Part shown: piece by piece, positions 3,287 to 47,653 of the stretch
Layout of the letters: each line of letters starts with the position of its first letter
How positions within the stretch are numbered: the first letter of the stretch is position 1
NCBI RefSeq assembly: GCF_019175385.1
Contig: NC_083346.1
Span: 54,279,821-54,343,820 of the forward strand
DNA from: Lycium barbarum
Lineage: Eukaryota > Streptophyta > Magnoliopsida > Solanales > Solanaceae
Length of the DNA: 64,000 nt
Direction: 5' to 3'
Made by a program: the position numbers and the translations under genes
The notes under the pieces: generated by a model
The model's database searches: none
What the model was told of the DNA's origin: nothing
Seen by the model: only the letters and a program-made list of their open reading frames with translations

Positions 3287-3317
3287 TTTATATGTGTGTG
3301 GCGCCAACACGTATAAG
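3287..3317 (+). promoter_or_regulatory. Leader hairpin of element C with GGCGCC loop
   Basis: The arms at 3287-3297 and 3307-3317 pair over 11 positions including G-U pairs. They enclose the nine-base loop GTGGCGCCA, whose centre GGCGCC is a perfect palindrome. It lies 53 nt after the primer site. The same structure with other palindromes occurs in elements A, D, E and H. I read it as a candidate dimer-initiation or packaging signal. Confidence 0.6.
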
Positions 3318-3431
3318 CAGTTGGCCACCAAGACATCGAGGATTGTCTCACTTCTTTCATACTCTAGATCATGCAGTTAGAGAGTACCTTCAAGAATCCT
3401 TCTAACTCGTGCGAATTATGTATTTCAGAAA

Positions 3432-4250
3432 GTGTCTCCTAGGAGAATGGAATCTAGGAGCCCAAGGGCTGCTACCTGTGCTACCCCAAGTAAGAATTCG
3501 CAGACTCATAAAGTTCGCATATGTGCACAGGGACATGCACCAAGTTCCAAGTCACAAGTTAGTATGGGAAAAAGGGGTTTTCAGAATCCTAGCTGCAACA
3601 AGTGTAGTAGGAGACACCAAGGGGTGTGTCGCTCATGAATGGATATATGCTATGGTTGGGGCTGGAGGAGCCATGTTTAGAGAGATTGCCCGTCAGCTGG
3701 GCATGGCGCCAAAGGTAATAAGCACAGAATGCAAAAAGAGCAAAAGCTACAAAAGGAGGGAGACAGGCAATTTAGCAAGAGAGCTAAGTCTATAGGTAAC
3801 TTTAACCATGGGAAATCTCGTGAAGGTGGAAATAAGCAGTTTTTAAAGAATGGATTGTCAGGACCTGCTCTTTCTACGGTGAATACACCCGTCCCAAGGT
3901 TCAAGATTAATCAGAACAATTGGGCTATCAGGGCAGTGAACTCACAGCCACAAACTAATGTGGGCCACCGAAGTTCTAAACACCCTATGTGCAATAAGTG
4001 TGGAAAGAGGTACCTAGGAGTGTGTCGTTCGGGCTTGGATGGTTGCTTCGGATGCGGTCAACAGAGTCGTTATCTTAAGGATGGTCTTTGAGCAAAACAA
4101 AATGCTAGAGGCAGAGATCGAAGCATCGTATATACTCTAGCAGGACGTCAGTACCCAGGGGCATCTTCAGAAGCAACCACAGGTATGATGATGATAGCTC
4201 TTACGTAAGCCCCCACGGGGTAGCATGATATATTTTAGCCTCTGGAGAGC
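3432..4250 (+). pseudogene. gag C-terminus and protease start, degenerate (element C)
   Basis: The frame opens with a GTG where an ATG is expected, directly after a TTTCAG acceptor-like site. It encodes a basic, serine-rich tail. Two tandem zinc-knuckle-like blocks follow: CNKCSRRHQGVC (about 3594) and CNKCGKRYLGVC (about 3990), the latter followed by CFGCGQQSRYLKDG (about 4048). The last is a broken copy of CX2CX4HX4C in which His and the final Cys are replaced. YTLAGRQYPGASSEATTG (about 4130) matches the start of the protease region ([18 protein letters not shown] in element A). Stops and frameshifts follow and no protease active site is seen. The duplicated knuckle block suggests an internal duplication of the gag tail. 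Confidence 0.75.
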
Positions 4251-6944
4251 ATATTGATTACCACAGTTATGGATAGGAAAGAGTCCATGGGCGAGTCATT
4301 CATGGTTCTAAAATGTTTCGGTATTGCAAAATAAAGATATGTTTGTATGGCCCATCTACATAAATAAAAGAGAGGGTGTACGACATGAAAATCAAGAGCA
4401 TGTGATATTGAATTCCCGGGAATAAGTTAAATTTTTCCAATTTTGTTTTGGTTAAAACCATAAAATACCATGTTAGTAAGTTACTGTAAGGAATAGATAC
4501 TACTATAAGATGAAAAGATGTGACAGGTCCTTCTAAGGTTAGGTGATTAAGTTTTTTTTTTTTGCAGCATTAGAGGGTGTGATATTAGCGAATTTTATTA
4601 AGAGGATTATTTTGATGGATAATAGAGGAGGTAGGTAAGGGAATAAAAAGATAAGTCTCATGGCCATAGTCTTAGAGGCAGAATCAGAAGAATGATCAAA
4701 TGGCGGCTTATTTCTAGACTTAAAGGATCCACATGCTTAGAACATTGGCTTTTGAACTAAAGGGGGAGATGGTACGATAAAGCACCAAGGTATATCATGT
4801 GTTCCTTATATCTATAAGTGTCGAGAAAGAAATGTTTGGAGTAACGTTACGTTTCCAATTCTGAAGTAATTCTTGTACCATGTGGTACTTATGCCCAGGC
4901 GTACTCTACTCATGCCTCCGTGCTATTTCATGCCCAAGTTAGCCTCTTACACTCTATGCTTATGATTCAAGAACCAAGACTCCCTAATGATAGTAATCCA
5001 TGCAAAACAAATGTTCTTTCATGTTTTGCACATCAGGTTGTGCTCATGTGTAAGAGCTAACCAAAAAAAAAAAAAAAACCGTACCCATCTCTCACGTATA
5101 TAACATGCTTTTATACTCATGTCCATGTTCTAGCATCTAAGTTCATTCAAATCTGATGATGATCTTGACCCCTATGATTATGCTATCACGTACTCGTGCC
5201 CTAATCCATTTCTTTATGCATCCCACTTGTGGTGGTATCGCAACAATGATGCTCTTAGACAATGACAAAGGTGAATCAAGATGGATGTCCTACCCATAAT
5301 TCTATGTAATTCGTGCTTATGTTTCTCTGGATAATGTTTTAAACCATCTCGTAGCTTGGCACAACAGATTCCCTTATCTTTTTCGAAGTATGTATGCCAT
5401 TTGTATGTTCAAAGTGACTTTCTACTCATGTATTAGGTGTTTGATGAGTGAAGTATTCATGCTTGTGATCCCTTCCTTCATGATCCTCATTTTAACGAGG
5501 GTGTTGACCCACATTGATAAGAGTAAACTATGTTAAACCATGTCTCATCATTTTAGTATATCCAAGTTCTAAAGGTAATACTTTATCCAGGCCTTACGTC
5601 TATGAGTACCCAAGAGTGAGCCTACAATTTTACTCCACGTAAGTCACACTTATGCCTTATTATTAGCTCAATACTCATGAATCAGGTCCAGACGCCACGA
5701 TATGCATCTATGATATACTCATGTAAATGTCAGGTTGCTCATGGTCCCATGCCCCATTTCATGCTATTCACGTTTCATGCCATATGAATCACATTCCCAT
5801 GTACGCATGATCCACATTACGTTCTCCATGTTCAATGCACCATGTCAGGTCTGTGCTTTAAAGCGAAGTATCTCACGTGATTAGTACCTACAATTCCTTT
5901 TCTCTCAATCCTTTATGATCTGCTCACAATAATAAGCAAGGTATGCCAAGGTATTCCTATCTATGTTTCAAAGAAAACAAGAGTTCCTTTCCTGCACACT
6001 ATGGTGCTTATCTCAGGAGTATTCTACTCAGATTCGACATATTCATGTCATGCCTATGCTAGAGCTTTATGAATACCTACGTTAGGATCATATTCTTGTT
6101 GTATGACTCAAGAATGTTGCATTCACACCGAGTTGCGCTTACACTAAAAGCCTAAGTCATACTCCTAGCACATATTACCGTGGTGACATACGAACGTCTA
6201 TGATCAAGTCTCTAAGTATCCAAATCCTACCCATGCTTGGTATTTAACCCTCATGTTGTGACAATCACGTTTTCGACATTCAGATCCTATGTTATGATAT
6301 CCATGTTTACACGTATTCGTATCTCATCACAGTTTAGCACTCATGTATTCATGTCAGCCAGTCTTCATGTATTTATGCCCCTCGTCATACGCCTCACGCC
6401 CAGGTAATCATGTTATGTTCGTGCCTATTTCTAGTACTCATGTCATTCGTGTCTATGGATTCTCTTCCAAATCCTATGTATAGTAATCATGTAATCATCC
6501 AGCCCATATCTGTGAGTTCAAGCCAACTCAGTATTCATGTTAGCCACATTCAAGATTCAGTAATCACGTTATGTCAAATCATGCGTATTAAGATACCCTA
6601 TGAGTTGTGTGTCGGGACTTTAGTTAGCTGGCAGGCATTTGAGAATGTCGTGAGGGTCTGAATTATGAAGGAACTCCTGCCATAAATTTTGTAGATTCCA
6701 GAGGTAGTAGTGATTCTTAACCACTAGTCACAAATCGAGGACAAATGTTTCACGATTCTCATTCATGTATGTACTACTCAGTTTCATGTTCCTGTGTACA
6801 TGTTTCTATGTAATCATGTATTCAGTTCTCATGATCCATGACCCCGTTCCCACGTAACCATGTAAAGCTCTTATGTTTTATGACATGTTTCTTTCACGTT
6901 CATGTATTCAAGCCATGACCAGTCCTAAACTTTACCACGACCCA
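4251..6944 (+). other. Non-coding internal region of element C, CATG-rich
   Basis: No RT, RNase H or integrase motif is found in any frame. From about 4860 to 6940 the plus strand is pyrimidine-rich and full of short CATG/TCATG/CATGT words in loosely repeating phrases (for example TCATGTATTCATG), unlike the A/G-rich sequence before it. It looks like filler sequence of a large pol-less element. I see no gene in it. Confidence 0.6.
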
Positions 6945-6979
6945 TCATTCAAGGACGAATGATCACAAGGGGGAGACAT
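6944..6979 (+). promoter_or_regulatory. Polypurine tract of element C with adjacent inverted repeat
   Basis: ATCATTC and GAATGAT (6944-6963) form a seven-base inverted repeat. The purine tract AAGGGGGAGA and then the 3' LTR follow. The same arrangement stands before every 3' LTR of the gypsy elements in this window. Confidence 0.75.
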
Positions 6980-9060
6980 TGTAACATCCCGTACCTTTAA
7001 CATAAGCTTTGACCATGATTCTAGACATAGAAAACTAGATAGAGAACGTGGAAATTGAAAATTTCTCTTCAGTTGTTAGATGGTGATTTATGCCCCAGAA
7101 TATGGGTTGTATTTCAGTTTATGGCCCGTATTTCAAATCATAATTTGCCATCTAAATCGCTGAGCATTATGGAATTTGGCTTGGGGGATATACATTGTTA
7201 AATACAGACCATATTTTGAAATACGGCCCGTATTTAACAATTGTGATTGGAATTGGGGAAAACTTTCTTGATAAAAGTTGTAGAGCTTTAAAATACCTTT
7301 CTAACCGTATATTATGGGGTCAAATGGACATCTGTGCAAAGAGTTATGGCTATTTTACTAAAGATTCACAGAGTAGTACAAACAAAATACGGATTGAAAT
7401 ACAGCCGTTCTTTCAAAATACAACCAGTATTTTGTTGGGCATAAAATTTAATGTTCCAGAACAATATATATTCGTCCATATCAATCCAAATCATTATTTT
7501 TCATTCCTTCAGGCCCCAGAATGACCTCCTACCCTCTCCCATCATCAATAACACCAAGGTAAGCCTATTCTAATTATTCCAAGTCTATTCTAATATATTT
7601 CCTTGTAATCTAAACAACAAATCATTATTCCTAACCTAGGGTTTTTAGAAAAACCCATCTCAAGGTTAAAGATTCAAGATTTTGGAAATTTTTTCAAAGT
7701 TCATGTTTTTAATACATGTTTTGGAGCATTACCAGGTATGTAGAATTTCTATCCACGTGTGCGAACATCTTGTTTTTCCCCACTCCACGTTCTTCCATGA
7801 TCATACAAGCTATACCAAAACTAGTATTTTATCCATGTTCATGGTAACCCTAAGTACATGTACCATGATATACTATAATTATATGATTACTTTGTTATTG
7901 TATTCTTAATAGTCCCTTTTTGGCTATTGAGAATCTGTCTGTAATCCATGAAAACCCATACTTTGCATTCCATGGGTTCCTACGTGCACGTTATTAAATG
8001 TAATGCTTATTTCATGAATATCCTACATGTCTATAAGTTTTCATGAAATTATATTATATTATTATATCCATGCCATGATACAAGATACTCATGTTTAATA
8101 CAAGTCATGTTTTATCCAATTCATTGGCTTCTTAGGCAACTATATCATGTTCATGTAATTTCGGAGTTGCACAGATTACCGAGAAAGTTTTTATACCTAA
8201 AACAACATATGCCAACGTAGCATAAAGATTGCTCTGCCCAGTAGGATAATTCCTTCCTATATTCCCCATTGAGGGATTTGGATCCATTCATGTCATATTC
8301 ACGTCTTGTACCCCGGCAAGGTACATGATGGCTTAGCTGGTCGGGCAGAGATTAGATGCCACTTGTTAACATGGTGGTTACATGTCGATTATATTAATGC
8401 TCTCCTAACTTAAAAATGTTTTTACCCATGTTACATATGTATTTATATCCATGTCCGATACAGATGTTCATGACAATGTTTCAGATTCAGTTTTAGCTCT
8501 CATCATGTTATTTTATGTGCCATGTTGATTCCATTCAGTTGCTTTACATACCAGTACATTCAATGTGCTGACGTCCCCAGTCTATTGCCCGGGGGCTTGC
8601 ATTTCACGATGCAGGTACAGATACACAGGACGACGGATCTACTCCATAGGACCACCCACATATCAGCTTTTGGTGAGCCCCATCTTCTTCGGGGTTTACT
8701 CATTATTTACTTTATGTTAGTTATGCATTTAAGGTATGTTGGGGGCCTTGTCCCAGTAGTTACATTGAGCAGTTCAAACTTATGTTAGAGGTTTGATAGA
8801 CTAGACAGTTATGCTATGTCAGATGTTTAGAGTCGTATAGCCGTCTTTGGCTCATTATCTATGACGATCCATATTCATGTTTTCTTAAAACAAGTATTTT
8901 ATTTGATATTTATGATATCCCATATTTAGGCTGATCATTTATGCCACATTCCGCTCATGTATGCCTTATGATGATTCAGCGAGCCATGTGGTTTTCTCTG
9001 TCACATATAGTAAGGCACCAAGTGCCGTTTTTCGTCCAGGTCATGGTTCGGGGCGTGACA
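6980..9060 (+). repeat. 3' LTR of element C
   Basis: Second copy of 1131-3216, starting TGTAAC and ending GTGACA. It contains the 17-base odd palindrome AAATACGGCCCGTATTT at 7219-7235 and the TATA-like box near 7464. Sequence after its end resumes the interrupted Z element. Confidence 0.88.
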
Positions 9061-9479
9061 AGTACAAGAAAGAGGTTAAATAGCGATAAGGAACGAGAAT
9101 GGGAAAGATGACTTCAAAGGAAGCTAAAGGAGAACTCATTTACTCAATTCAAAGTTTCCATATGAAATGTGTATACCTCGGTATGTCACAAGAATATTAT
9201 ACAAATCTCTCGTTCCATACGTCGGTGACACCTAAGGTCAAAGAATGGCATGACCAGATGAGGAAGTACCTATGTACAAGGTAAGATCGTGACTAAGCGA
9301 TTATGACTGATGATTGGTATCAATGCGAAACTTAAGAGAAAAATATATTGTATTATATAATCTAGCGAGAGGAAATTGTTAAGGAAAGACATTGTCCAAA
9401 TGTTCCATGATTCACTATGAGTTGATTATACCCCGATACGTCCCGACATTCAAGGATGAATGTTCCTAAGAGGGAAGGA
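9061..9479 (+). pseudogene. 3' end of element Z: pol tail remnant and polypurine tract
   Basis: The segment continues Z after the C insertion. No chromodomain can be read with confidence. Before the LTR the inverted repeat ACATTC/GAATGT (9446-9463) and the purine run AAGAGGGAAGGA are preserved, which marks the Z polypurine tract. The 61-residue frame at 9099-9284 shows no family resemblance and is treated as a chance frame in decayed sequence. Confidence 0.6.
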
Positions 9480-10475: not shown

Positions 10476-12551
10476 TGTTATGTTCTGTGTTTTGGCATAA
10501 TTGGAAAATCGAGAAATAAGTAAGACTTGTATGTTATAAGGAAATATTTTGATTCTAGTTGATATAACTATGTTGGTTATTAAATCATTGGTGCTAAGAC
10601 ATCGGGGAAGGCCGAGGGCAAATTTGGAATTTCGGAAATTAGTTTCGGGAATTACAAAACGGGATTCTAATGAATTGGGCCAAGAAAATTGAAACAAGAA
10701 TTTAGGCCCAAAGATGTGGGGTGGCCGGCCACAAGGCTTGGCCCAAACCCATTTTTAAAAGTCATGTGTTATGCACATGATCCTTATCTAGATATATATC
10801 AAGTTTCATTTGGAATTATCAAAAAACCTTATCAAAAACAAGAAAAAAAAATTGAAGAACCCCCTTAAAGAAGGTCTCGGCCGAACCTAAGAGAAAAAAA
10901 AATTCCTAGCTTTGTTTGTGGCTCAAAAATCTTGGTTTTCCCATATTTGTAGAGTACTCAAGACGCTCTTCAACGGGATACAATTAGTTTGGCGAAAGGA
11001 GTACGTTTGCGACAAGTCGGGAATTCAAGAAAAGGTATGAATTTTGCTACTTTAATGTTGTGGAATTGGTATGAATGTGTTAAGGATTGAGAATAGACGA
11101 GAAATTCATAGTTTTGATGTGTGTGTATGAAGCCGTGTGTGTATGTGTGTTTAGTGAAGTGGCCGTGAGCCACAAGGTGTGTAGGGCAAGGTGAAATTGA
11201 TTTGTTAGTTCGTTAGTTGCGTCGTTGTGACATTTATGACGTGAATGAATATTTAACGAATCGAATTGGCATTGGAAAATGGTTACGAATTATTATGGGA
11301 AAGTATATGATTTCGGTATATTCGTGTATATCATTGTATATTTATGATATTAAGGTTTTAAATGGGACTTATGGTTGTTGTTAATGAATTTGGAATGAAA
11401 CAATGTAAGTTAGTATGTTCGTCAGAATTGTTGATGTTTCGGATGAAATATGGAAAGTAATGAACTTCTTGAAATTGTGTATATTGGTTGGAATATAATT
11501 GGGATGTGTTTGAATAACCTTGAATGGGTGAATGAATATAGTAATGTGGACATTGGTTCGGTATTGTGAAGTTTGAATGAAAGTTGCCAACTTATATAGT
11601 AAAGAAGAATATTGAAGTTAGAATGATTTAGTTGTGGTTTATGTGTTTGTGATGTTTGGGCTGTTGTTGTTGATGTTTATTGAGCAGAGCTAAGTCTCGG
11701 GGGTGTTAGATAGGGCCGGGTTCCGTTTGGAATTATGCGGTGATATGGCTGGTGACGCGATACGCTCACATATGTGTGTTCGGGGATGTACGGAGATTTG
11801 AAACCTTCTGGTGTTATGCTGTGTGTGGCACCAGCGTCGGAGTGGTGACCACGTTCTTGAGCGTTGCATGATTTTGTTTGCATTATATATATATGATTTT
11901 GATACTCCGTTCGGACTCCTCTTTTGTATCTTATTTGTTTTCAGTTGTGGCCTATATTTCTGTACTCCGTGCTTTACATACTCAGTACATATTTCGTACC
12001 GACCCCCTTTCTTCGGGGGCTGCGTTTCATGCCCGCAGGTACAGACGCCGGTGATCCACCGTTGTAGGCCTTATCTTCTGCTATTTCGGAGTACTCCTCT
12101 TTGATCCGAAGCCCACTTTTGGTACATACATCTTTTGCTATGTATATACTTTTGTACATTTGACTATTTGGGTACGGCGGGGCCCTGTCTCGCCATATGT
12201 CTTTGTTTGGATTCGTAGAGGCCTGTAGTCATGTATGTGGGGCGAGGGTCCCATATGTATTCGTATGCTTTTGATATTTGGTCTTAATGCGATCCGTTGT
12301 TATGGTGGCCCTAAATGGCTTTTATGTTTATATTTGCACTTATGACCGGCGATGGATATTCCGCCGCTCCTTTCTGATTTGATATGATATTTTGATGCAC
12401 GCGACCGCTTAAGACAGATTTTGATATAATTATGTTTGAAATGGCTTTTATGAAATTTTGAAATAAGTTTGGTTTTGATAAATGAATATGAGATTTGGTC
12501 TGGGTACCCAAGTAGAGTGCCAGTCGCGGCCCACGGGGCTGGGTCGTGACA
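10476..12551 (+). repeat. 5' LTR of element A with internal deletion
   Basis: 2,076 bp against 2,924 bp for the 3' copy. It matches the 3' LTR up to GTTAGATA (about 11714), then jumps to GGGCCGGGTTCC. The missing piece corresponds to about 18966-19798 of the 3' LTR. The three bases ATA are shared at both breakpoints, typical of a microhomology or illegitimate-recombination deletion. The TATA region and the terminal stem-loop module remain. Confidence 0.9.
10791..10800 (+). promoter_or_regulatory. TATA-like box in 5' LTR of A
   Basis: GATATATATC about 315 bases into the LTR. The 3' LTR has a slightly longer version (about 18041). The related B LTR keeps an equivalent run on the minus strand. 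The transcription start is not known. Confidence 0.4.
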
Positions 12552-12555
12552 AAAG

Positions 12556-12567
12556 TGGTATCAGAGC
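12556..12567 (+). promoter_or_regulatory. Primer binding site of element A (initiator tRNA-Met)
   Basis: TGGTATCAGAGC starts five bases after the LTR end GTGACA, a perfect 12-base match to the usual plant initiator tRNA-Met primer site. Confidence 0.92.
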
Positions 12568-12612
12568 GGTTTGTCCTCCGAATGTCTACAGGTCGTGTCT
12601 CGTAGAGTCTTT

Positions 12613-12644
12613 TTTATCGATGTGTTGTGCACCACATCTATAAA
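12613..12644 (+). promoter_or_regulatory. Leader hairpin of element A with GTGCAC loop
   Basis: GATGTG (12619-12624) pairs with CACATC (12633-12638). TTTAT and ATAAA extend the stem beyond one C-U mismatch. The eight-base loop TTGTGCAC contains the perfect palindrome GTGCAC. It starts 45 nt after the primer site. See the matching hairpins in C, D, E and H. Confidence 0.65.
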
Positions 12645-12688
12645 CAGGAGGCTACAGGGCACTTAGGATGTTACTTTCTTTGGAAATC

Positions 12689-12708
12689 TTAGATCGTGCG
12701 ATAGAGCT
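12689..12708 (+). promoter_or_regulatory. Conserved leader block AGATCGTGCGATAGAGCT
   Basis: Nearly identical copies lie in the leaders of H (40969-40988), D (44020-44037) and E (47700-47714), and a decayed one in C (about 3364-3383). ATCG and CGAT can pair around TG. It sits about 50 bases before the gag ATG. The function is unknown; packaging or translation are possible roles. Confidence 0.5.
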
Positions 12709-12755
12709 GTGCTGTTAGGATGATTCTGATCTGACCCGTTATTGTGTTTGCAGTG

Positions 12756-15700
12756 ATGCCTCCGAAGAAGGCAGCGGCCGCCCAGAAGGGCAAGGCAAGG
12801 ATGGGAGAGACTAGTCAGGCACAGCGATCTACCCGGGCTCGTGTCTATGATTTGCCTGAGGTTGTGCCTCATTCTGAGGGGTCCGCTACACCACCATTGG
12901 TACAGCCTCGAGCAGGTCCTTCAGCAGCTCCAGAGGCCCGAGTACTCGCTCCTGAGACTCCAGCTCCTCAGCCAGGGGCGGAGGATAGGATCCTGAGGGA
13001 GGCTGTTCAGTTACTGACCACATTGGTAGTGGGGCAGGCTCGCAGACGCGGGCGGAGGGACGATGATGACGATGACAGGCAGGACAGCCTGAGAGTTCGG
13101 GAGTTCTTATTATGTGGCCCTCCAGAGTTTTTTGGGTCTAAGCCCGACGAGGACCCCCATGACTTTATTCGGGGGATGCGGCGCTCGCTAGACTTGGTCA
13201 GGGCTTCAGAGACCGAGTCGGTCGAGTTGGCCTCGCACAGACTTCGGCACGTTGCTACTCACTGGTATGAGACCTGGGAGCTATCCAGGGGTGAGGGTGC
13301 CCCTCCAGCAACTTGGGGCGAGTTTGTGACTGCTTTCACCCGCCCCTTTCTGCCCCCAGAGTTGCGAAGGGCGCGGGCTGATCGATTTTTACATCTGCAG
13401 CAGAGGGGCCGGAGTGTTCGTGAGTATAATCTGGAGTTTGATTCCCTGGCCCGGTATGCACCTGCCGTAGTAGCAGATATGTCCGATCGGATGCACAGAT
13501 ATGTTATGGGATTGGATCGGTATTTGATTGACGGTTGTATGGCTGTGTCATTGCAGACCGATATGGACATTGCCCGACTACAGGCTTATGCGATGGGTAT
13601 GGAGGACCGTCACAGGTCTGATCATTCTGGTAGAGATCGGGACAGGAGGCCGCCCAAGAGGGCTAGGTCCGCGGGATATTCTGGAGATTTTAGAGGCGGA
13701 CAGCCTCAGCAGCAGTAGTCAGGCAGACAGCTTCCTCCGTCCGGCCGGAGTACTCAGTCAGGAGGCAGGAGATTTGATAGTGGGGGACCGTCTGGGGCCG
13801 GCCAGAGCTCTAGGGCGGCAGGTTCACAGGTGTCCAGAGGCCCTAGCCAGGCCAGACCAGCCAGGCCCCGTTGTTCTCATTGCGGGAAGTCTCATCCTGG
13901 GGAGTGCTATCGAGCTACTGGAGCTTGTTTTTCGTGTGGTGGTCAGGGCCATTTTATGAGAGATTGTCCGTTGGCTAGCGGTTCTGGTAGTGTGGCTCAG
14001 CCGACAGGGTCAGCCGCCGGTTCATCATCTGCTCCATCTGTTGCACGCCCTGCAGGGCGAGGTATGCCGGCACCGGCGGGACGCGGTCGAGGCCGCGGTG
14101 GTGTTTCAGGTTCTAGCGGTCCCTCGAACCGCATATACGCATTGGCCAGCCGCCAGGATCAGGAGGCTTCGCCAAACATTGTCACAGGTACATTACTGGT
14201 TTTCTCCAGCTCTGTATATGCATTGATTGACCCTGGTTCTACTTTATCGTATATTTCCCCGCTCGTTGCTAGTAAAATTGGGATAGTGTCTGAGCTTATA
14301 GAGCCATTTGAGGTAGCCACGCCGGTTGGGGATCATGTTATAGCGAGGCAGGTCTATAGGGATTGTTCTGTGGCTATTTATGATCGTTGCACTAAAGTTG
14401 ATTTGATAGAGTTAGACATGCTTGAGTTCGATGTCATTATGGGTATGGACTGGTTGTCTTCCTGCTATGCTAATGTTGACTGCCAGAAAATGGTAGTCCG
14501 TTTTCAGTTTCCAGGGGAACCAGTTATAGAGTGGTTCGGATCTACAGCATCGCCGAGGGGTAAGTTTATTTCATACCTCAAGGCTAAGAAGATGATCCAG
14601 AAGGGTTATATCTATCATTTGGTTCGTGTGCACGATACTGCAGCCGAGACCCCTACCCTTCAGTCTGTTCCGGTCATTAATGAATTCCCAGATATATTTC
14701 CTGACGAGCTTCCTGGCCTTCCGCCTGAGCGGGAGATTGATTTTACTATAGAGTTGATGCCGGATACGCAGCCTATATCTATTCCTCCGTACAGAATGGC
14801 ACCGGTTGAATTGAAGGAGTTGAAGGAGCAGCTGAAAGATTTGTTGGATAAGGGCTTTATTAGACCCAGCACATCACCCTGGGGAGCGCCGGTATTGTTT
14901 CTAAGAAAGAAAGATGGGTCACTGCGGCTGTGTATCGATTATCGGCAACTGAATAAGGTGACTATAAAGAATAAGTATCCCCTTCCCCGGATTGATGACT
15001 TGTTTGATCAGTTGCAGGGTGCTAAACATTTTTCGAAGATAGATCTGCGCTCAGGTTATCATCAGGTGCAAGTGCGAGAATCTGATATCCCGAAGACTGC
15101 TTTCAGGACCCGGTACGGGCATTATGAATTCATAGTTATGTCGTTCGGGTTGACTAATGCTCCAGCGGTATTTATGGATCTCATGAATCGAGTATTTCGG
15201 CCTTTCTTGGATATGTTCGTTATTGTGTTTATTGATGATATTCTGATTTACTCGCGATCAGCCGAGGAGCATTCAGATCATTTGGGGACGGTACTTGGTA
15301 TTCTCCGTCAATAGAAGTTATATGCTAAATTCTCCAAATGTGAATTCTGGTTAAATTCTGTGGCATTCTTGGGCCATATCGTCGGCGCAGATGGTATTCG
15401 GGTTGATACGCAGAAGATTGAGGCTGTACAGAATTGGCCCAGGCCTACTACACCGACAGAGGTGCGCAGTTTTCTGGGATTAGCCGGATATTATCGCAGG
15501 TTCGTGGAGGATTTTTCTTCTATTGCAGCACCACTAACGAAGCTTACTCAGAAAGCGGAAAAATTTCAGTGGACCGATGCCTGCGAGCGCAACTTTCAGA
15601 TGGTGAAGGAAAGACTAGTTACGGCCCCAGTTTTGGCTCTTCCAGAGGGATCAGACGGGTATGTTGTCTACTGTGACGCCTCTGGTATTGGGATAGGTTG

Positions 15701-17615: not shown

Positions 17616-17690
17616 TGAAATGAACTACGTATGTCATCGTTCAAAGAGGGACTCCCCCGCCATGAACATAAGACTTTATAAGATTAATTT

Positions 17691-17726
17691 AACATTCAGG
17701 GACGAATGTTCTTAAGGGGGGGAGAA
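17691..17726 (+). promoter_or_regulatory. Polypurine tract of element A with adjacent inverted repeat
   Basis: AACATTC (17691-17697) and GAATGTT (17704-17710) form a seven-base stem. AAGGGGGGGAGAA follows and leads straight into the 3' LTR at 17727. The tract primes plus-strand DNA synthesis in this element class. Confidence 0.85.
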
Positions 17727-25542: not shown

Positions 25543-25588
25543 AAATTAATCTTATAAGGTCTTATGATCAAGGCAGGAGTGTCCCTTT

Positions 25589-29114: not shown

Positions 29115-30643
29115 ATGTAAAGCTCCCCACTTCTTCGTTTGGCATGTCTTAGTATGTTAGGTTGATATCGGAACCCCCAGAGTAATTCTGCTCCTCGAAA
29201 CCTGATCTATAGAATGGCTACTATTCATTCAATCCAATTGAAGCCTAATGACCCTATTTCGGCTAGAATGCAATCAATCGTCCGAAACCTATGGAAATGT
29301 GATCGGGTCACTTTGAAATCCTTATGTATGATCCCATAGACCCTAAATGTCCATAAATTATGTTTTCCACCTCGACTTGACCCGAGGTGGGCCCGCAAAT
29401 CCCGAGAAGCCTTATTTGTCCTATCGGGCTCTCTTTTTGGATAAAATTCGATATGGAATCTTCGATTTTGAAACTTCCCTCTATGAAATATGTTTTGATC
29501 ATTATGATATGTTAAGCTATGTTTTGAGCCATACGTACCACTTTGGGAAACATTTTGTGAAATGAAAATTTGTACTAGTTAATTTTCGACTATTTTGGTT
29601 AATGAAATGACTTATGAAATCCTCAAATTTTGAAAGGTTATTTTGAATATACAAATTGCATTGTTTGCTCACGACTCCGCTCGTGCCTTATTTTGACTTC
29701 GTTCACCGGTTCCCGGGCCGGTTATGATTCGTGCGCCCTATGATGATTCGGCCGTGTGCTGTGTTACGGTTCCCTGAGGCCTCGCTATAGGGCCGGGTTC
29801 CGTTTGGAGTTATGCGGTGATATGGATGGTGACGCGATACGCTCACATATGTGTGTTCGGGGATGTACGGAGATTTGAAACCTTCTGGTGTTATGCTGTG
29901 TGTGGCACCAGCGTCGGAGTGGGGACCACGTTCTTGGGCGTTGCATGATTTTGTTTGCATTATATATATATATGATTTTGATACAAGATTTTGATACTCC
30001 GTTCGGACTCCTCTTTTGTATCTTATTTGCTTTCAGTTGTGGCCTATATTTCTGTACTCCGTGCTTTACATACTCAGTACATATTTCGTACTGACCCCCT
30101 TTCTTCGGGGGCTGCGTTTCATGCCCGCAGGTACAGACGCCGGTGATCCACCGTTGTAGGCCTTATCTTCTGCTATTTCGGAGTACTCCTCTTTGATTCG
30201 GAGCCCACTTTTGGTACATACATATTTTGCTATGTATATACTTTTGTACATTTGACTATTTGGGTACGGCGGGGCCCTGTCTCGCCATATGTCTTTGTTT
30301 GGATTCGTAGAGGCCTGTAGTCATGTATGTGGGGCGAGGGTCCTATATGTATTCGTATGCTTTTGATATTTGGTCTTAATGCGGTCCGTTGTTATGGTGG
30401 CCCTAAATGGCCCTTATGTTTATATTTGCACTTATGACCGGCGATGGATATTCCGCCGCTTCTTTCTAATTTGATATGATATTTTGATGCACGCGACCGC
30501 TTAAGACAGATTTTGATATAATTATGTTTGAAATGGCTTTTATGAAATTTTGAAATAAGTTTGGTTTTGATAAATGAATATGCAATTTGGTCTGGGTACC
30601 CAAGTAGAGTGCCAGTCGCGGCCCACGGGGCTGGGTCGTGACA
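29115..30643 (+). repeat. Truncated copy of the A 3' LTR (duplication product)
   Basis: It starts abruptly at ATGTAAAGC in mid-LTR and runs to GTGACA. It is followed by the same GTTGG and Z sequence as the original at 20650. It is not a separate insertion but part of unit 2. The small frames it contains (for example 29888-30094) are the same chance frames as in the A LTR. Confidence 0.9.
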
Positions 30644-35499: not shown

Positions 35500-35581
35500 T
35501 TCTCCCCCCCTTAAGAACATTCGTCCCCGAATGTTAAATTAATCTTATAAGGTCTTATGATCAAGGCAGGAGTGTCCCTTT

Positions 35582-38500
35582 TTAATAATGACATACATAA
35601 TTCATTTTATCAATCAACACAACAAACTGAAAAAAAATTAGATTACCTGTGGACGTCGGGAACAAGTGAGGGTATCTCCTTTTCATCTCGTCCTCCGCCT
35701 CCCAAGTCATCTCCTCCCGATTATTGTTGCGCCACAGGACTTTGACGGAGGGCACTTCTTTAGTGCGTAGTCTCCGCACCTGTCGATCCAGAATAGATAC
35801 AGGCTGCTCGTCATAGGATAACTGCTCCGTCACCTGAATGTCATCAACTGGGAATATCCTGGAAGGATCACCAATACATTTCCGCAACATAGACACATGA
35901 AACACCGGGTGTACGGCTTCCAAGTCGGATGGTAAGTCTAGCTCGTAGGCGACCTCGCCTATCTTTCGAACGATCTGATACGGCCCAATGTACCGGGGGC
36001 TCAACTTACCCTTTCTATCGAATCTCATGACACCCTTCATGGGCGACACCTTCAGGAATACCCAGTCGCCAATCTGGAACTCTAACGGTCGACGTCGTCT
36101 ATCTGCATAAGCTTTCTGTCGACTCTGAGCAACCAATAATCGTTCTCGAATAAGCTTTACCTTATCTACAACTTCCTGGATCACATCTGGCCCAATCAGC
36201 TTAGTCTCGCCCACGTCAAACCAACCAATAGGAGATCTGCATTTCCTGCCATAAAGGGCCTCGTACGGAGCCATCTGGATGCTGGAGTGATAACTGTTAT
36301 TATAGGCAAACTCAATAAGCGGCAAATGATCATCCCAGCTGCCCCGAAAATCAATAACGCAGGCCCGCAACATATCTTCGAGCGTCTGAATAGTGCGCTC
36401 GGCCTGTCCGTCGGACTGAGGGTGAAAAGCTGTACTGAGGCTCACCTGAGTCCCTAATCCCTCCTGAAATGACCTCCAGAAATTTGCTGTAAACTGGGTA
36501 CCTCGGTCAGTAATAATAGATATAGGGACTCCGTGAAGTCTGACTATCTCTCTGATATACAATCTGGCATAGTCCTCAGCCGAATAGGTAGTCCGAACCG
36601 GAAGGAAATGGGCTGATTTCGTCAGCCTGTCAACAATAACCCAAATAGAGTCGTACCTGCGTAGAGTACGCGGCAACCCAACAATGAAGTCCATATTAAT
36701 CATCTCCCATTTCCAGGCTGGAATTTCGATCTCCTGTAGCAGTCCACCGGGCTTCTGATGCTCGATCTTAACTTGCTGGCAGTTCGGGCATTGACTAACA
36801 AACTCAGCAATGTCTTTCTTCATGCCGTCCCACCAATACAAACACCTGAGGTCCCGATACATTTTAGTGGAACCAGGATGAACAGAATACCGTGCATTAT
36901 GGGCCTCGCCCATAATCTGCCGCCGTAAGCCCGCAACGTCCGGTACACAAAATCTGCCGTCATATAATAATACTCCGTCAGGCGAGATCTCAAACTGAGT
37001 CTTTGCTTTATTAAGGGCCACATCTCTGTACTGAATCAAAAGAGGATCCTCGAACTGGCGCTGTTTTACCTCCTGAATAATAGATGACTCAGCAACTGGA
37101 CGGACAGAAATCCCCGAATCTCCAGAATCTATCAAACAAACTCCGAGGCTGGCCAGTTGACGAATGTCACAAACCAAATCTTTCTTACCAGACGGTACAT
37201 CAGCCAAGCTGCCCATAGACTTGCGGCTAAGTGCATCCGCTACCATATTGGCTTTCCCCGGATGGTACAGAATATCAACGTCGTAATCCTTTAGTAGCTC
37301 AAGCCATCTCCGCTGCCACAAATTTAGTTCCTTATGCTTAAAAATATACTGGAGACTTTTATGGTCCGTATAGATATCAGCATGGACCCCATATAAATAA
37401 TGCCGCCAAATCTTCAAAGCATGAATCACCGCGGCCAACTCAAGATCATGAGTGGGATAGTTCTTCTGGTGCGGTCTGAGCTGCCGGGAAGCATAGGCTA
37501 TGACTCGACCATGCTGCATCAATACACAACCTATCCCAATACCAGAGGCGTCACAATAGACAACATATCCATCAGATCCCTCTGGAAGAGCCAAAACTGG
37601 TGCTGTAATCAATCTCTCCTTCAGCATCTGAAAACTGCGCTCGCAGGCATCTGTCTACTGGAATTTTGCTGCTTTCTGGGTAAGCCTCGTCAGTGGTGCT
37701 GCAATAGAAGAGAAATCCTCCACGAACCTGCGATAATACCCAGCCAATCCCAGAAAACTGCGCACCTCTGTCGGAGTAGTAGGCCTGGGCCAATTCTGCA
37801 CAGCCTCAATCTTCTGCGTATCGACCCGAATGCCGTCTGCGCCGACAATATGGCCCAAGAATGCCACAGAAGTTAACCAAAATTCACATTTAGAGAATTT
37901 AGCATATAAATTCTGCTGACGGAAAACGCCAAGTACCGTCCTCAAATGATCTGAATGCTCCTCGGCTGATCGCGAGTAAATCAAGATATCATCAATAAAC
38001 ACAATAACAAACATATCCAGAAAAGGCCGAAATACCCGGTTCATCAGATCCATAAATACCGCTGGAGCATTAGTCAGCCCGAAAGACATAACTCTGAACT
38101 CATAATGCCCGTATCGGGTCCTGAAAGCAGTCTTCGGGATATCTGACTCCCGAACTCGAACCTGGTGATAACCTGAGCGCAGATCTATCTTCGAAAAATA
38201 TTTAGCACCCTGCAGCTGATCAAACAAGTCATCAATCCGGGGGAGGGGATATTTATTCTTAATAGTCACCTTATTCAGCTGCCGGTAGTCGATACACTTC
38301 CGCAGTGACCCGTCTTTCTTTCTGACAAACAACACCGGCGCTCCCCAGGGTGATGTGCTGGGTCTGATAAAACCCTTATCCAGCAAATCTTTCAGCTGCT
38401 CCTTCAACTCCTTCAACTCAGCTGGTGCCATCCTGTACGGAGGAATAGATATAGGCTGCGTATCCGGCATCAACTCGATAGTAAAATCAATCTCCCGCTC

Positions 38501-38822
38501 AGGCGGAAGGCCAGGAAGCTCGTCAGGAAATACATCTGGAAACTCACTGACGACCGGAACAGACTGAAGGGTAGGTACCTCCGCTGCAGTATCGTGCACA
38601 CGAACCAAATGATAGATATACCCCTTCTGGATCATCTTCTTAGCCTTGAGGTATGAAATAAACTTACCCCTCGGCGATGCTGTAGATCCGAACCACTCTA
38701 TGACTGGTTCCCCTGGAAACTGAAAACGGACTACCTTTTGCTGGCAGTCGACATTAGCATAACAGGAAGACAACCAGTCCATACCCATAATAACGTCAAA
38801 CTCAAGCATGTCTAACTCTATC
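35582..38822 (-). pseudogene. pol of chromovirus B, unit 2, single internal stop
   Basis: The same frame as in unit 1 but without the frameshift: the long frame 37627-35582 covers RNase H, the full integrase with both zinc His and both Cys (CPNCQQ), GPYQI and chromodomain. Upstream, in the same frame and behind the shared TAG at 37655-37657, lies RT with FIDD back to the end of the protease region (38824). The protease active site is lost at the 38822 junction. This is the best preserved RNase H-integrase-chromodomain sequence in the window. A change to MRFDRKGK just before the GPY motif is specific to this copy (G to D). Confidence 0.93.
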
Positions 38823-39408
38823 AAATCTTACCTTTTCTTGAAAACCCGACTTGTCATAAACGAGGTTCTTGTGCCAAACTAATTATACCCCGTTGAAGAG
38901 GGCCTTGAGTACTTCACAACTATGTAGAAATTGAGATTTTTGGATCAACAACAAAGCTTGGATAATTTTTTTTTCTCCTCTCCTTGCCTTCGGCCGAACC
39001 CTCTTTTGTGGTGTTCTTTGAATGTTTGTTCTATTTTCTTGATAATTATCAAGTGTACATGATATATATCCTTTTAAGAGTCATGTGCTATGCACATGAC
39101 ATCAACATAATGGGTTTGGGCCTTGCTAAGGCCGGCCACCCTAATCCCTTGGGCCTAAACTTTGTGTCATATTTTCCTTGGCCCAATTCTCGAAAAGTCC
39201 CATTTTGTAATTCCCGGAACTAATTTCCGAAATTCCAAATTTATCCTCGGCCTTCCCCGAGGTCTTAACATTAATAATTCCATAACCAACATAGTCACAT
39301 TCACTAAAATCAAAATATGTCCTTATAACACACAAATCGTAATTATTTCCTGATTTCCAACTATACGAACAGACGGGACATAATATTCTCCCCCCCTTAA
39401 GAACATTT
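38823..39408 (-). repeat. Rearranged B LTR fragment with polypurine tract
   Basis: It copies the U3 end of the B LTR (compare 34946-35499) plus the polypurine tract, in the same inverted orientation. It begins abruptly at 38823 inside a pol codon context and ends at GAACATT (39408), within the polypurine-tract inverted repeat, where H LTR sequence begins. Because a polypurine tract is attached, it derives from a 3' LTR and is not simply B's missing 5' LTR. It points to a third, mostly deleted duplication unit or a template switch. Confidence 0.8.
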
Positions 39409-40828
39409 GTCATTGTTGGTATTGTGTGGGCTGTATGAAATTTGTTTCAGGATAATTATGGTAAATTAAGTATGGTTATTGTTGTTCATGGTGTTGTGAA
39501 CTTGGGAAAGTAATAGAAACAGGGGAGATGTTGTCCGATTCATGATACGACAAGTTGGTCATTTGATATACATGATATACCAAGTATATCCTTAGCATAA
39601 TGAGAGACATTATCACTATTATAGATTAAACCACTAAACAAATTGCGAGGTTGGACTGACAAGGAAACTAACAGGGTATGTAAGATTCTTCTTTCTTTTC
39701 TTTGGCACGAATCCAACGATACTAGCTAACGAATGTCCCCATAAGAAGAAACTTCTATTCTAATGCTTATAAGCTCCATGATCTTCATGTTTCAAAATGT
39801 TATTTGATTTGTTTAAACCTTATTTCTAGTTTACAGATGAGTCACATGTGACATTGTTAGTTATATAACTCATTCGGAGGCTACCGACCTTACATCACTC
39901 CGATGGTCTCAGATCATGTTCCACGAGTTCATCATGCATTATATACATATATGTATCTATTTTACTACACCGAGCCGGGATATAGTCGGCCGGATATGGC
40001 ACCTATTGTGCACATCACTGTAGTTGGGTATAATAACACCAAGTCCCACTAAGGCCAGGTACGATATTATGATGATGATTAGCCCCAAAGAGCGGCTTGA
40101 TGATGGTGTGACTTATCTATATACATATATATGTATTTTGTATATGGTTTCAAACTAATGCATGCATGTCACATGTTCCCAGAGTTTCAGGTTACATCCT
40201 TCTCTACTTTTCTTTGATTTATTGTCTTTATATATATGTATTCCTACCTTACATACTCAGTACATTATTCTATACTGAAGTCCTATTGGTGGGATGTTGC
40301 GTTCGTGCTCGCAGGTCCAGATAGCTCGACAGAAGGACTTTCGTGATAGGAGTCTCAATTCCACGATGATGGTTACGCTCCGCTTTTCCTGGAGTTGTTG
40401 TAGAGGTGTGTATACTAGGTGGTCCTCAAAGTTTGTATGTATTTATGTAATATTTGCATTACGGGTATGGCGGGCCCCTGTCCCGACCAACATGAGGTGT
40501 ATGTATGTTCTTAAAGGCTCATAGAATGTATCATGGGTATAGATGTCATCTGTGGCCTTGTCAACCCTAGTGTGATGTCTATATGCTCTTGGTTTCCTCG
40601 TTGGCCTTTTGTTTACATGTAGCTTTCTGTGACAGCCTTGACGGCTTGTACAGAAATTATGATATGTCGGGACTTTTCTGTATGCAGTTGGACTTTGCTA
40701 TGTTTCCCGTGTACTGTACGTTCACTTGATTCCTAAATAGACAAGATAGTATATACATTATATGGCCAAGTGGTACTTCGTGAGTTAAGTCGGGTACCGG
40801 TCATGCCCCTCGAGTTTGGGGTGTCACA
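39409..40828 (+). repeat. Second part of LTR H
   Basis: It carries a GGGGAGATGTTGTCCGAT block also seen in Z (20729), the TAGTCGGCCGG block (about 39985), the shared terminal module (TACATACTCAGTAC at about 40250, then CGCAGGT at 40311) and the end GGGGTGTCACA. It is followed by a primer site, so it is the end of a 5' LTR. Its first half is probably 21539-22606, before the B insertion. The 76-residue frame at 40294-40524 crosses the LTR module and is not a gene. Confidence 0.65.
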
Positions 40829-40832: not shown

Positions 40833-40844
40833 TCGTATCAGTGC
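40833..40844 (+). promoter_or_regulatory. Primer binding site of element H, two mismatches
   Basis: TCGTATCAGTGC against the consensus TGGTATCAGAGC, four bases after the LTR end. It shows that H was a complete 5' LTR followed by an internal region. Confidence 0.75.
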
Positions 40845-40989
40845 AGGTTTGTCCTAGGGATGTCTATGAGCCGTGTCTAGTTTAGTCTTGTTTATAGGTG
40901 TGTAGCGCGCTACACTTATAAGCAGGAGGCTACAAGACTTTAAGGCTTAGCAACCTTTCTTTCTTATTTTAGATCGTGCGATAGAGCTG
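40845..40989 (+). other. Leader of element H, interrupted by LTR G
   Basis: Untranslated leader after the primer site. It contains the hairpin, a GCAGGAGGCTAC block and the conserved AGATCGTGCGATAGAGCT block at 40971-40988. G-type LTR sequence starts right after this block, so the rest of H is missing here and no H gag is seen. Confidence 0.7.
40892..40921 (+). promoter_or_regulatory. Leader hairpin of element H with GCGCGC loop
   Basis: GTGTG (40898-40902) pairs with TACAC (40911-40915), and the stem continues through TTATAG and TTATAA with G-U pairs. The loop TAGCGCGC contains GCGCGC (40905-40910). It lies 47 nt after the primer site. An alternative is the longer perfect palindrome GTGTAGCGCGCTACAC. 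Confidence 0.65.
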
Positions 40990-43880: not shown

Positions 43881-43892
43881 GGCTAGCAGAGC
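43881..43892 (+). promoter_or_regulatory. Degenerate primer binding site of element D
   Basis: GGCTAGCAGAGC against TGGTATCAGAGC, three mismatches, at the expected place between the LTR end and the leader hairpin. Confidence 0.6.
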
Positions 43893-43940
43893 AGATCAGT
43901 CCTAGGGTGTGTCTACGAACCGTGTCTAGTAGAGTCTTGG

Positions 43941-43970
43941 TTATGGGTGTGTTGCGCGCCACACTTATAA
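43941..43970 (+). promoter_or_regulatory. Leader hairpin of element D with GCGCGC loop
   Basis: GTGTG (43947-43951) pairs with CACAC (43960-43964), and TTATGG pairs with TTATAA through two G-U pairs, an 11-pair stem. The loop TTGCGCGC contains GCGCGC (43954-43959). It starts 48 nt after the primer site. Confidence 0.65.
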
Positions 43971-44085
43971 ACAGGAAGTTGCGGACAGTTTTGGAATAAA
44001 TGACCTTTTTTCTTCATATGAATCGTGCGATAGAGCTATGATGTAAGAAATTATTGAACTTAATCGTGTGTTGTGTATTTCAGAG

Positions 44086-44684
44086 ATGCCTAAAAAGAAA
44101 AAGGCTACAGCGGCGCAAAAGGGCAAGACGGTGGCAGAAAAGCGGGCTACAAGAGCACCGCCACCGGTAGTAGAGGAATGTGAGTCCCAGAGTGCGGCTC
44201 AATCTCAGTCCTCCCAGACAGTGCCTATTACTGGGGAGCGTGAGGGAGCCACAGCCCCAGCTCCAGCACCTCCAGCTCATCCACCGGATGCTTCTGGTCA
44301 AGATGTGAAAGAGGCCATTAATTTGTTGACTCAGTTGGTTGCGGCCCAGACTCAGAGGCAAAGTTCAGGGCTTGGTGATAGGGCTGTTAGTGTGAGGGTC
44401 CGTGATTTCATTACTTTAAACCCTCCGAAATTCTTTGGGTCAAAGCCGTAGGAGGACCCTCAGGACTTTATTGACGGTATGTTGAGGACACTCCGATTGA
44501 TACATGCTTCAGACACCGAGTCGGTGGAGTTAGCGTCATATAGATTGAGAGATGTCTCGATCCAGTAGTATATGGTGTGGATGGCCTCACGGGGGGCCAA
44601 TGCACCTCCCCCGGTATGGCAAGAGTTTGTTGATGCCTTTCTCCGTCATTATATGCCTCCGAAAGTTCAGCGAGCTAGGGCCGA
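44086..44684 (+). pseudogene. gag N-terminal half of element D
   Basis: It starts MPKKKKATAAQKGK, like element A's MPPKKAAAAQKGK, directly after the acceptor-like ATTTCAGAG. Gag core motifs follow: VRVRDFITLNPPKFFGSKP, then DPQDFIDGM, LRTLRLIHAS and FVDAFLRHYMPPKVQRARA. In-frame TAG codons are at 44449 (GAG to TAG) and 44566 (TGG to TAG in the conserved Trp-Tyr pair). It is cut at 44684 by element E; the next codons are found at 57225. Confidence 0.9.
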
Positions 44685-47559
44685 TGTTATATCCCGTATT
44701 TCGTACATTCGGATATTTCAAGGTAGTTGTGGTGAGTTAAGGGAATGACCATCATCCAAAATTATTTTAATGTACAAGTTGGTTATGAATATTATTAGTG
44801 TGAAAATATTGAGAAAGGCTAAGGGTAAAAAGGGAAATTCATAAAATGGTTCATGGTAATATTGTGGAAGGCTAGGGGAAAAATGGGGAATTTCAAAAAA
44901 CAAAATGGTCATGAAGTTACTAGGGCCGTGTGACATGTGAGGGAATATGTGTCCATATTTTTATTTGGTGGAGCTAAATTATGTGTATAGACCAAAGCTT
45001 AAAAGGCAAGACATTAGTCATCTTTATTTTAATTTAAAGAAGCTTCAAGAAGAAGGGTAGGTGGCCACTTGGTATTGGAAAGGCTAAGTATATATATAAA
45101 CAAGTGGGGGCAAATAAGACATAATCATCTTTCAAGACAAGAAGTTTGGAGAAGAAGAAAAAAAAAAAGAGAAATATAGTAGTGTTCGGCCATGGTGCCA
45201 GAAATTTGAGTCCATGGAATTGATCAAGAAAAAATATTTTCTTCTAGTATTCCAACTAATTTGAAATCCCTCATTAACATGAAGGAGTTGTTGGAGCAAG
45301 CAAAGCCTTTATTTGTGTAGTTCACAAGCCGTAGCCATGTAAAGAAGTTGGGTGAGAAAGGTATGTGTTCAATCCTCTTTTACATATGTTACGGGTGGTT
45401 TATGCATGTTGTTGTATGAAGAAATGGATGAAATTCATGTAATATATGTGTGTGGGTGTTGGCCGAATAGTAGCTAGGTGGGTGAGATGTGATGAATTGA
45501 TTTTATTTAGTAGTTTGATTGTTGTGTTGTGGATTCCATGATGTAAAATGAGGATTTAATGGCTTGAAATGAAGTTGTAACCGTTGTGGTGTCGTTGTGG
45601 AAGCTAATGTGACACTAGCATGAATTCTTATGTTTGTATAAATGAAGTTGTTAATGTAAAATGTTGGTGGAATTCATGAATTTGGAAGTGAGACATTTGT
45701 TTGGAAGATTGTAAGTTGGGTTGTTGTGATTGAATTTGAAAGAAGGAAATGAGTTGTTATTGTTCTTGTTGGAATTGGAAGGTTTCGGGTGAAGTAGTAT
45801 GTTGATTGAGTCGTTTTGAATGTTATGTGAATTGAATTAAATATAAATGAAATGTCGTTAAATTGTATGACAAAGGTTGTTAATGTTAGAATGCATCTTG
45901 AATTTATTGTTGATGTTGTTGGTATGATTGATGGTATTGTTGTTGATAGTTTGGCCGAGTTGAATTCTCGGATTGTTGATTGATGATTTCGGCCGAGTTA
46001 GATTCTCGGGGATGGTGTATTTACAGGGGAGATGCTGCCGAAATTTCGGCAGATTATAAATGAATTCATTTGAAGGATTAAGACAAGTATATGGTGATGA
46101 ATCTAATAATTGCGACAATCTTCTTGAATGTAGACTAGCGATAGCGAGCTTGGACGATTAAGCGTAGCTAATAGGACGCGGAACAGGTATGTTAAGGCTC
46201 TCCCCTTTTTTTCCAAGGCATGATTCCGATGTTATGATCTCATAATTGCTTCCATATTCTCCTTGTTTTCAAAAATTAGATGTTTATGATTTCAAGGCAT
46301 GATTCTTTTCCGATAACCCGTCAATGCTTTCCAAAATGTCCGTATTTTTCCAAAACAAAGGTTTATGGTATTGTAAGCTTTAATGACAATAACGATGGAT
46401 ATGTTTTACAACGACATTGATGATGTCGAGGATGAGAATATTTCTATGATGACTATGATAAGTATGATTTCATGTTCGAAAGGTACTTGATATGATTATT
46501 GCTTTTATTTTCCAAAAATAGATTCTGAAATGTTCGTAGAAGGTTCTGTACTTCAAACGCTTTTAACTTTCTTATACTAAATCGGGTTGACCTGAAACTT
46601 GTTTCTGAGCCTTCAGGGTCGGTTTATGTATGTTGTTATTCGTTGCTCGTCTCATCTTATAATAATTGTTCCTTCAAGGTGAGACAAAGCGGCCATGGTT
46701 ATTCCATAATGTAATCGGAGGTTACCGACCATACGTCACTCCGACGGATACATGACTTTCTTTGGGCTCTCATGCATGCTGCTTATATGATATATGTATA
46801 TGTATATGGGGGATATGGGGAAAAGGGCCATATGTTGCGCTATAGACGCATTGCCACCTGGTCAGTTGGCGTAACTTATCATCCCGGACGCGGGATATAT
46901 GTGGGGGAGCCAATGTTGTTCGGCGCTATGACATGTTCTATTTTCTATGTATATGACAAAGAAATGTTTTCAAAGGAAAGCTAAGCATGCATGGCATCCG
47001 CCCTAAGAGGCACTCAGATGTACAGGTTACCCTTTTATCTCATGATATGCTCTATATCTTTATTCTGTTGTTGTTCATAATTACATCTCTTACTACTCGG
47101 TACATTGCTCGTACTGACCCCCCTTTCTTCGGGGGGTTGCGTTTCATGCCGCGCAGGTACACCCAGATGAGATGAAGCTATTAGAGAAGACATTCCAGCG
47201 GAGTTGGCAAGCTCCACTTGTTCCTGGAGTGTTGCCGAGTCAGAGTATGTGTGCTATGATGTCTTGTTCGAAGTTAGAGACTTTGCAGACAGAGTCCTGG
47301 GTATAGAGTGTCGGTATTGTAAACGGCTCCACCAGCCGATGTGTCATCTTATGTTATGTTATAAAGTCCATGTGATTACAGATTCCATTTGATCTGAGTA
47401 CGAGGGAAAAGAAAGATTCTGAAAACTTGCTATGTATTTCATTCTTATTCGATTTAAGAGTCAAAAGATATTATGCATGTAATAAGAGTCAGCGGGTTCG
47501 CTCGGCTCCGAATATGGGGTCGGGTGCCCATCACACCGTAGTAAAGTCGGGGTGTGACA
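44685..47559 (+). repeat. 5' LTR of element E
   Basis: It matches 54288-57219 with few differences. Indels include a 13-base repeat unit missing near 44795 and a 23-base deletion near 47095 that removes half of the terminal module's lead-in (the GCCTTACA text). It contains the perfect 18-base palindrome CTGCCGAAATTTCGGCAG at 46035-46052. Small frames in it (for example 45858-46118 minus) recur in both LTRs only because the LTRs are copies. Confidence 0.92.
45091..45100 (+). promoter_or_regulatory. TATA box in LTR E
   Basis: TATATATAAA followed by CAAGTGGGGG. The same text is at about 54704 in the 3' LTR. Confidence 0.5.
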
Positions 47560-47562
47560 AAG

Positions 47563-47574
47563 TGGTATCAGAAC
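47563..47574 (+). promoter_or_regulatory. Primer binding site of element E
   Basis: TGGTATCAGAAC, one mismatch to the initiator tRNA-Met site, four bases after the LTR end. Confidence 0.88.
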
Positions 47575-47621
47575 AGGTCGTCCTAGGGGTTGTCTGCAAA
47601 GTCGTGTCCAGTAGAGTCCTG

Positions 47622-47653
47622 TTTATGGGTGTGAAGCCGGCCACATTTATAAA
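47622..47653 (+). promoter_or_regulatory. Leader hairpin of element E with GCCGGC loop
   Basis: TTTATGG GTGTG (47622-47633) pairs with CACAT TTATAAA (47642-47653) over 12 positions with three G-U pairs. The loop AAGCCGGC contains the palindrome GCCGGC (47636-47641). It lies 47 nt after the primer site. The AA plus palindrome resembles the lentiviral loop layout. Confidence 0.65.

Follow-up and report, generated by a model that had tools for sequence, protein, structure and literature searches.

A leader hairpin with a changing but self-complementary loop in five plant LTR retrotransposons, a candidate RNA dimerisation signal

Self-comparison of the window, by which we mean the whole 64-kb stretch of DNA that was analysed, resolved it into a nest of plant LTR retrotransposons; the sample considered here consists of five elements from this one window (C, A, H, D and E), and their leaders are related. 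Element A has a 5′ LTR at 10476-12551, an interrupted 3′ LTR (17727-18966 and 19794-20650) and reading frames for gag, protease-RT and RNase H-integrase, with the gag frame on the + strand at 12756-13718 (Retrotrans_gag, 2.1e-15). Its domains are arranged in the order gag, RVP_2, RVT_1, RNase H and rve, followed by a weak Chromo match (21.0 bits, E 3.3e-4, against a cut-off of 25.1). The leader of D lies at 43884, and D is interrupted by E, with its pol frames resuming at 57727-61253; no Chromo match was found within the two pieces of D scanned, and its reverse transcriptase had 7985 protein matches, with Solanum and Tanacetum among the best 120 of the 7985. Elements C (LTRs at 1131-3217 and 6980-9061, 91% alike) and E (LTRs at 44683-47560 and 54286-57220, 95%) were searched for an intact pol, and none was found; each has only short weak matches to the A and D proteins, over 33 residues around a zinc knuckle in C and in a single weak stretch of 47 residues in E. 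Zinc-knuckle-like stretches occur in C at 3590-3635 and 3984-4082, and are perhaps remains of gag. The leader of H lies at 40829, and a search of the window for its LTR partner found none; H is cut short within the window. The original prediction had described these elements as chromoviruses and their pol-less derivatives. The first description has support in A only, from a Chromo match below the curated cut-off; the second is supported for C and E by their short weak protein matches, a judgement that does not cover the truncated H.

The window also contains a direct duplication of 9.7 kb (19118-28830 and 29111-38822, 99.35% identical), which holds minus-strand A-like elements. Within these minus-strand relatives of A (22605-29113 and 32598-39411) the covariance model described below finds no leader, and self-comparison suggests that their leader ends are missing. 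Inside E there is a 902-bp direct repeat (48408-49309 and 51787-52688, 98%), both copies of which hold a minus-strand piece similar to the D LTR; in this repeat region no primer site was seen by eye in the two stretches inspected, and the covariance model gave no match.

In all five elements, a hairpin on the + strand follows the primer-binding site. In C, the primer-binding site (TGGTATCAGAGC, 3222-3233) is an exact match and the extended leader hairpin spans 3269-3337 (67.9 bits in the covariance model for 3269-3336), with its upper stem at 3287-3317 and the palindrome GGCGCC at 3300-3305. The site in A (12556-12567) is likewise exact, and is followed by a hairpin at 12595-12662 (84.4 bits) with GTGCAC at 12627-12632. 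H has a primer site with two mismatches (40833-40844), a hairpin at 40873-40940 (85.0 bits) and GCGCGC at 40905-40910, here inside a 16-base perfect palindrome; D has a damaged primer site (43884-43892), a hairpin at 43922-43989 (84.2 bits) and GCGCGC at 43954-43959; and E has a primer site with one mismatch (47563-47574), a hairpin at 47604-47671 (84.1 bits) and GCCGGC at 47636-47641. All primer sites and hairpins are on the + strand. The distance from primer site to hairpin is 45 nt in A, 47 in H, 47 in E, 48 in D (measured from the damaged site) and 53 in C. Thus, five of the five sense-strand hairpins that had been predicted 45-53 nt 3′ of the primer site were recovered, and each of the five six-base palindromes is exactly as predicted. 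An extension of the primer-tRNA pairing beyond 12 nt was also considered and dropped as weak, with 212-464 of 500 shuffles as good in A, C, D and E; H alone did better, with 20 of 500 shuffles equalling or exceeding it.

The predicted stem of 11-12 positions is present in every element, but the hairpin is longer than this, with a stem of 15 pairs in A and D, where mismatches occur (among them a C.U mismatch in A), and of 17 in E and H; the stem is followed by an internal loop (2x2 in A, D and E, larger in H) and then by a lower stem, and in C it is bulged and out of register in its lower part. The loop is 8 nt in A, D, E and H and 9 nt in C. In the former four, two bases and then the palindrome are predicted to make up the loop; the palindrome directly adjoins the 3′ side of the stem, lies one base off the hairpin axis and is no simple prolongation of the 3′ stem. 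In contexts of 276-806 nt, the palindrome is predicted to be unpaired in five of five elements (mean 0.81-0.998) and the upper stem to be paired (0.85-0.997); the palindrome of H could instead lengthen the stem, because it lies within the 16-base palindrome.

Folding of the hairpin relative to shuffled sequences gave z-scores of -4.76 for E, -4.07 for H, -3.09 for D, -2.54 for A and -0.65 for C, such that the C hairpin folds no better than many shuffles (equalled or bettered by 49 of 200). Over 145-nt leaders the hairpin is retained in the minimum-energy fold of all five, with z-scores of -3.11 (E), -2.12 (H), -0.25 (D), -0.91 (A) and -0.65 (C), of which only those of E and H are below -2. Since the scores over 145 nt are weak in D, A and C, stability alone is not compelling for all five.

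With the five elements in a fixed register, 108 of 119 cells pair (90.8%), compared to 35-57.5% for slid partners, and changes on both sides occur in five pairs (three in the stem, two in the palindrome), compared to one in every slid control. None of 500 shuffles reached the observed pairing percentage, the five double changes or the covariation score; the observed number of pair types was reached by 49 of 500 shuffles. The 84 stem cells of A, D, E and H comprise 65 Watson-Crick, 14 G.U, no A.C and 5 other combinations. The count excludes C, whose register is shifted: read in its own register, C pairs at 11 of 11 positions, two of them by G.U, and has no C.A; the fixed register gives it one C.A cell. 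These observations bear out the expectation that the stem changes by paired or G-U substitutions. An inverted repeat maintained in DNA would not favour G.U over A.C, and it is therefore likelier that selection acts on the sense RNA than on the DNA.

The loop changes among the elements and yet stays self-complementary, as had been claimed: four types (GGCGCC, GTGCAC, GCGCGC and GCCGGC) are found in the five elements, and every one is a palindrome. The loop can be described as one invariant and two variable pairs, and the four palindromes form a chain of single paired changes. An exact column shuffle gives 1/20 x 1/10. In a neutral simulation that started from a palindromic ancestor (five lineages on a star tree, two mutation models, branch lengths of 0.1-0.3), all five stayed palindromic, given at least four distinct loops, at about 1.5e-6 to 5e-6, estimates that rest on 2 to 13 events each and apply to a feature chosen after it had been sighted. 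RNAduplex energies are -7.9 to -11.7 for a loop with its own type and -2.2 to -7.5 with other types, and every loop prefers its own type. Cofolding gave an extended intermolecular duplex in all five, with a program that cannot model kissing loops.

Conservation among the elements is confined to short islands. Mean pairwise identity in 20-base bins is 0.52-0.78 across 12547-12706 of A, but in the other bins of A 12227-13127 it is 0.08-0.45, except for two bins at 0.56 and 0.60. The islands common to all five are an LTR core and the primer-binding site with the leader; a polypurine region aligns in A, C, D and E (the C site placed by eye). LTRs and interiors are otherwise unmatched, apart from the coding regions of A with those of D. 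The leader contains a second motif, TAGATCGTGCGATAGAGCT, on the + strand at 12690-12708 in A, identical in H (40970-40988) and with two mismatches each in D (44019-44037) and E (47700-47718); it is thus 17-19 of 19 identical in four elements, with 0.01 matches expected by chance, and is degenerate in C. Directly 5′ of the polypurine tract is a small hairpin (A 17690-17725, E 54245-54283, D 61585-61620, C 6944-6978), with the stem AACATTC/GAATGTT in A, E and D and ATCATTC/GAATGAT, a paired change, in C. Because short islands are conserved amid unmatched sequence, the leader hairpin looks like a cis-acting signal, and it has been retained even in C and E, for which the search gave no intact pol. 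Alongside it, both have preserved a primer site and the polypurine region; these three together are what one would expect of elements mobilised in trans.

The LTR cores of all five elements share an invariant GCAGGT (GT at 12039 in A and 2769 in C). This could be a splice donor, a lead only; as a donor it scores no more than moderately (5.6 in A and C), and in D, E and H it falls outside the four top-ranked sites. Acceptor-like CAG trinucleotides end at 12753, 44083 and 3428, in A and D two nt before the gag ATG, and none was found in E and H. Splicing at this donor, if real, would take the primer-binding site and the hairpin out of the gag mRNA.

To gauge how unusual the hairpin is, the 64 kb and 12 dinucleotide shuffles of it were scanned for 11-position stems around a loop of 8-9 nt that contains a six-base palindrome. 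With 11 of 11 positions paired, there are six sites on the + strand and none on the - strand, compared to 0-1 in each shuffle; four of the six are the hairpins of C, H, D and E (A scores 10 of 11). With 10 of 11 paired, there are 10 sites on the + strand and four on the - strand (shuffles 1-7), and with 9 of 11 there are 43 sites (shuffles 21-45). Since the counts at looser levels are near or within the shuffle range, the motif by itself is not rare, and it is place and homology that matter. Strong hairpins with palindromic loops are also present in the LTRs of C (3129-3158) and E (56408-56440). The covariance model run over the whole window found the five copies at 68-85 bits, scores that are high by construction because the model was built from these same five, and found no sixth copy; the best other matches on the + strand scored 12 bits (E 0.59), and the remaining five of the 12 listed matches are the reverse strands of the five hairpins, at 11-41 bits. 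The Rfam collection, which holds an HIV-1 DIS family, gave no match at gathering score over the whole window.

Searches for relatives elsewhere were negative. Patterns run against IMG/VR (the second leader motif, four stretches; a 15-mer from the 3′ stem, 36) gave 40 loci, none of which matched the model (E up to 1), and RT-based scans of IMG/VR gave no confirmed relative. A contig scan gave at least 120 bacterial or archaeal stretches, which were treated as chance because blastn of the five leaders against them gave matches of at most 30 bases. A pattern scan for the hairpin next to the polypurine tract gave no matches, and neither did blastn of leader A in phages or of leader E in plasmids.

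Together, the sequence evidence favours an RNA-level loop that pairs with itself, as a dimer-initiation signal predicts, and we consider it likely that the hairpin is a self-pairing signal that starts dimerisation through a kissing loop and is linked to packaging. It would act in cis within the full-length element RNA, where the loop would expose its six-base GC-rich palindrome and pair with its counterpart on another RNA molecule; the stems could then turn this kissing pair into an extended duplex, and the resulting dimer would be packaged by Gag and copied by reverse transcriptase. The open loop and the preference of each loop for its own type fit a kissing-loop start of RNA pairing; for Gag binding and the role in packaging, we infer from retroelements in general.

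Of the alternatives, a packaging, nuclear-export or reverse-transcription structure that is bound by Gag or a host protein, with a palindrome that is incidental or tunes the shape of the loop, deserves most weight, but is still unlikely: conservation of the whole leader, including TAGATCGTGCGATAGAGCT, means that the hairpin may belong to a larger protein-binding signal, but such a signal gives no reason to expect self-complementarity to persist in five of five elements while the loop itself changes. It is quite improbable that common ancestry without function, with palindromes that arose by chance, accounts for the hairpin; the elements do share an ancestor in the leader region, and there are only five of them, but the leader aligns while the flanking LTR and the interior are mostly unalignable, and the neutral simulation puts the outcome at about 1.5e-6 to 5e-6. 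Ribosome-shunt hairpins are known from plant pararetroviruses, and in A and H a short upstream ORF (seven and six codons) ends at the hairpin base, 22 and 25 nt before the palindrome, in line with a shunt or another translation-control hairpin. However, this holds in only two of the five: no ATG occurs between the primer site and the hairpin base in D and E, and the C frame continues past that point. In addition, E has the best-scoring hairpin yet a single weak 47-residue protein match, and the palindrome is left unexplained, which together make translation control very improbable. Least credible of all is an inverted repeat that acts in DNA, as a cruciform, a recombination site or a protein-binding site, since, despite the 16-base perfect DNA palindrome in H, the stem tolerates G.U but not A.C (14 to 0), the reverse strands score 11-41 bits compared to 68-85, and four different palindromes are unlike one protein-binding site.

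If the hairpin is a dimerisation signal, its palindrome might also act as a pairing code that divides co-resident autonomous and pol-less elements into dimerisation groups: D and H would share GCGCGC, and A, C and E would each stand alone with a type of their own. The idea that palindrome type restricts which genomes pair fits the RNAduplex energies, but stands as a candidate code only, and we hold it tentatively, as possible but rather doubtful. A hairpin with interchangeable palindromes predicts that pairs of the same type dimerise and mixed types do not. Palindrome types would then offer a way of matching pol-less elements to helpers, and if the code is true, a parasite would either take part in RNA pairing with a particular helper, and so recombine with it, or evade both. 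In many plants, a large share of the genome consists of Ty3/gypsy elements and their parasites.

The original prediction drew an analogy to lentiviral SL1. The portion of PMC7357161 available to us describes an HIV-1 DIS with strictly conserved flanking purines, the palindrome GUGCAC, and both kissing and extended dimers. In so far as that text describes it, SL1 resembles the plant hairpins as a 5′-leader stem-loop whose apical loop carries a GC-rich palindrome of six bases, and A shares GUGCAC. However, the five leaders lack conserved flanking purines (the 5′ flanks are GT, TT, TA, TT and AA in C, A, H, D and E), in A, H, D and E the loop measures 8 nt and leaves no base unpaired 3′ of the palindrome, and the element is unrelated. 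Thus, the analogy is useful for the way in which the hairpin might work, but does not extend to membership, as the conserved flanking purines are absent.

Ty1 is a copia-type element. The start proposed for its packaged dimer is a loop-loop interaction, which in the available part of PMC5454406 is between SL1a and SL3a, two loops complementary to each other; the plant leaders have a single palindrome instead. Related signals have, from the parts of the literature accessible to us, already been reported for Ty1, Ty3 and barley BARE (copia), and the plant Ty3/gypsy case is apparently undescribed: the literature surveyed, including the accessible text of PMC12786077, PMC2829016 and PMC3902901, gave no comparable dimer signal for plant Ty3/gypsy elements, which is weak evidence as subscription papers were mostly outside the survey. 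For Ty3 itself, the text seen of PMC11381356 puts the candidate dimerisation site PAL6, with the sequence CUGCAG, at the tip of a short hairpin and finds it required for dimerisation in vitro. It is thus, on that text, a GC-rich six-base palindrome at a hairpin apex in a Ty3/gypsy element, but it lies inside the GAG ORF (nt 391-396), whereas the plant hairpins are in the leader just 3′ of the primer-binding site, and variation of the palindrome, as in the plant loops, is not described in the portion of PMC11381356 available. BARE2 of barley, a Copia element unable to make Gag, is said in the available text of PMC3735527 (citing Tanskanen 2007) to have conserved signals for dimerisation and packaging, and the particles into which it is packaged are those of its partner. 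As far as that text goes, the likeness of the BARE1/BARE2 pair lies in a Gag-deficient plant element with conserved dimerisation and packaging signals, and the difference in its superfamily, which is Copia, not Ty3/gypsy.
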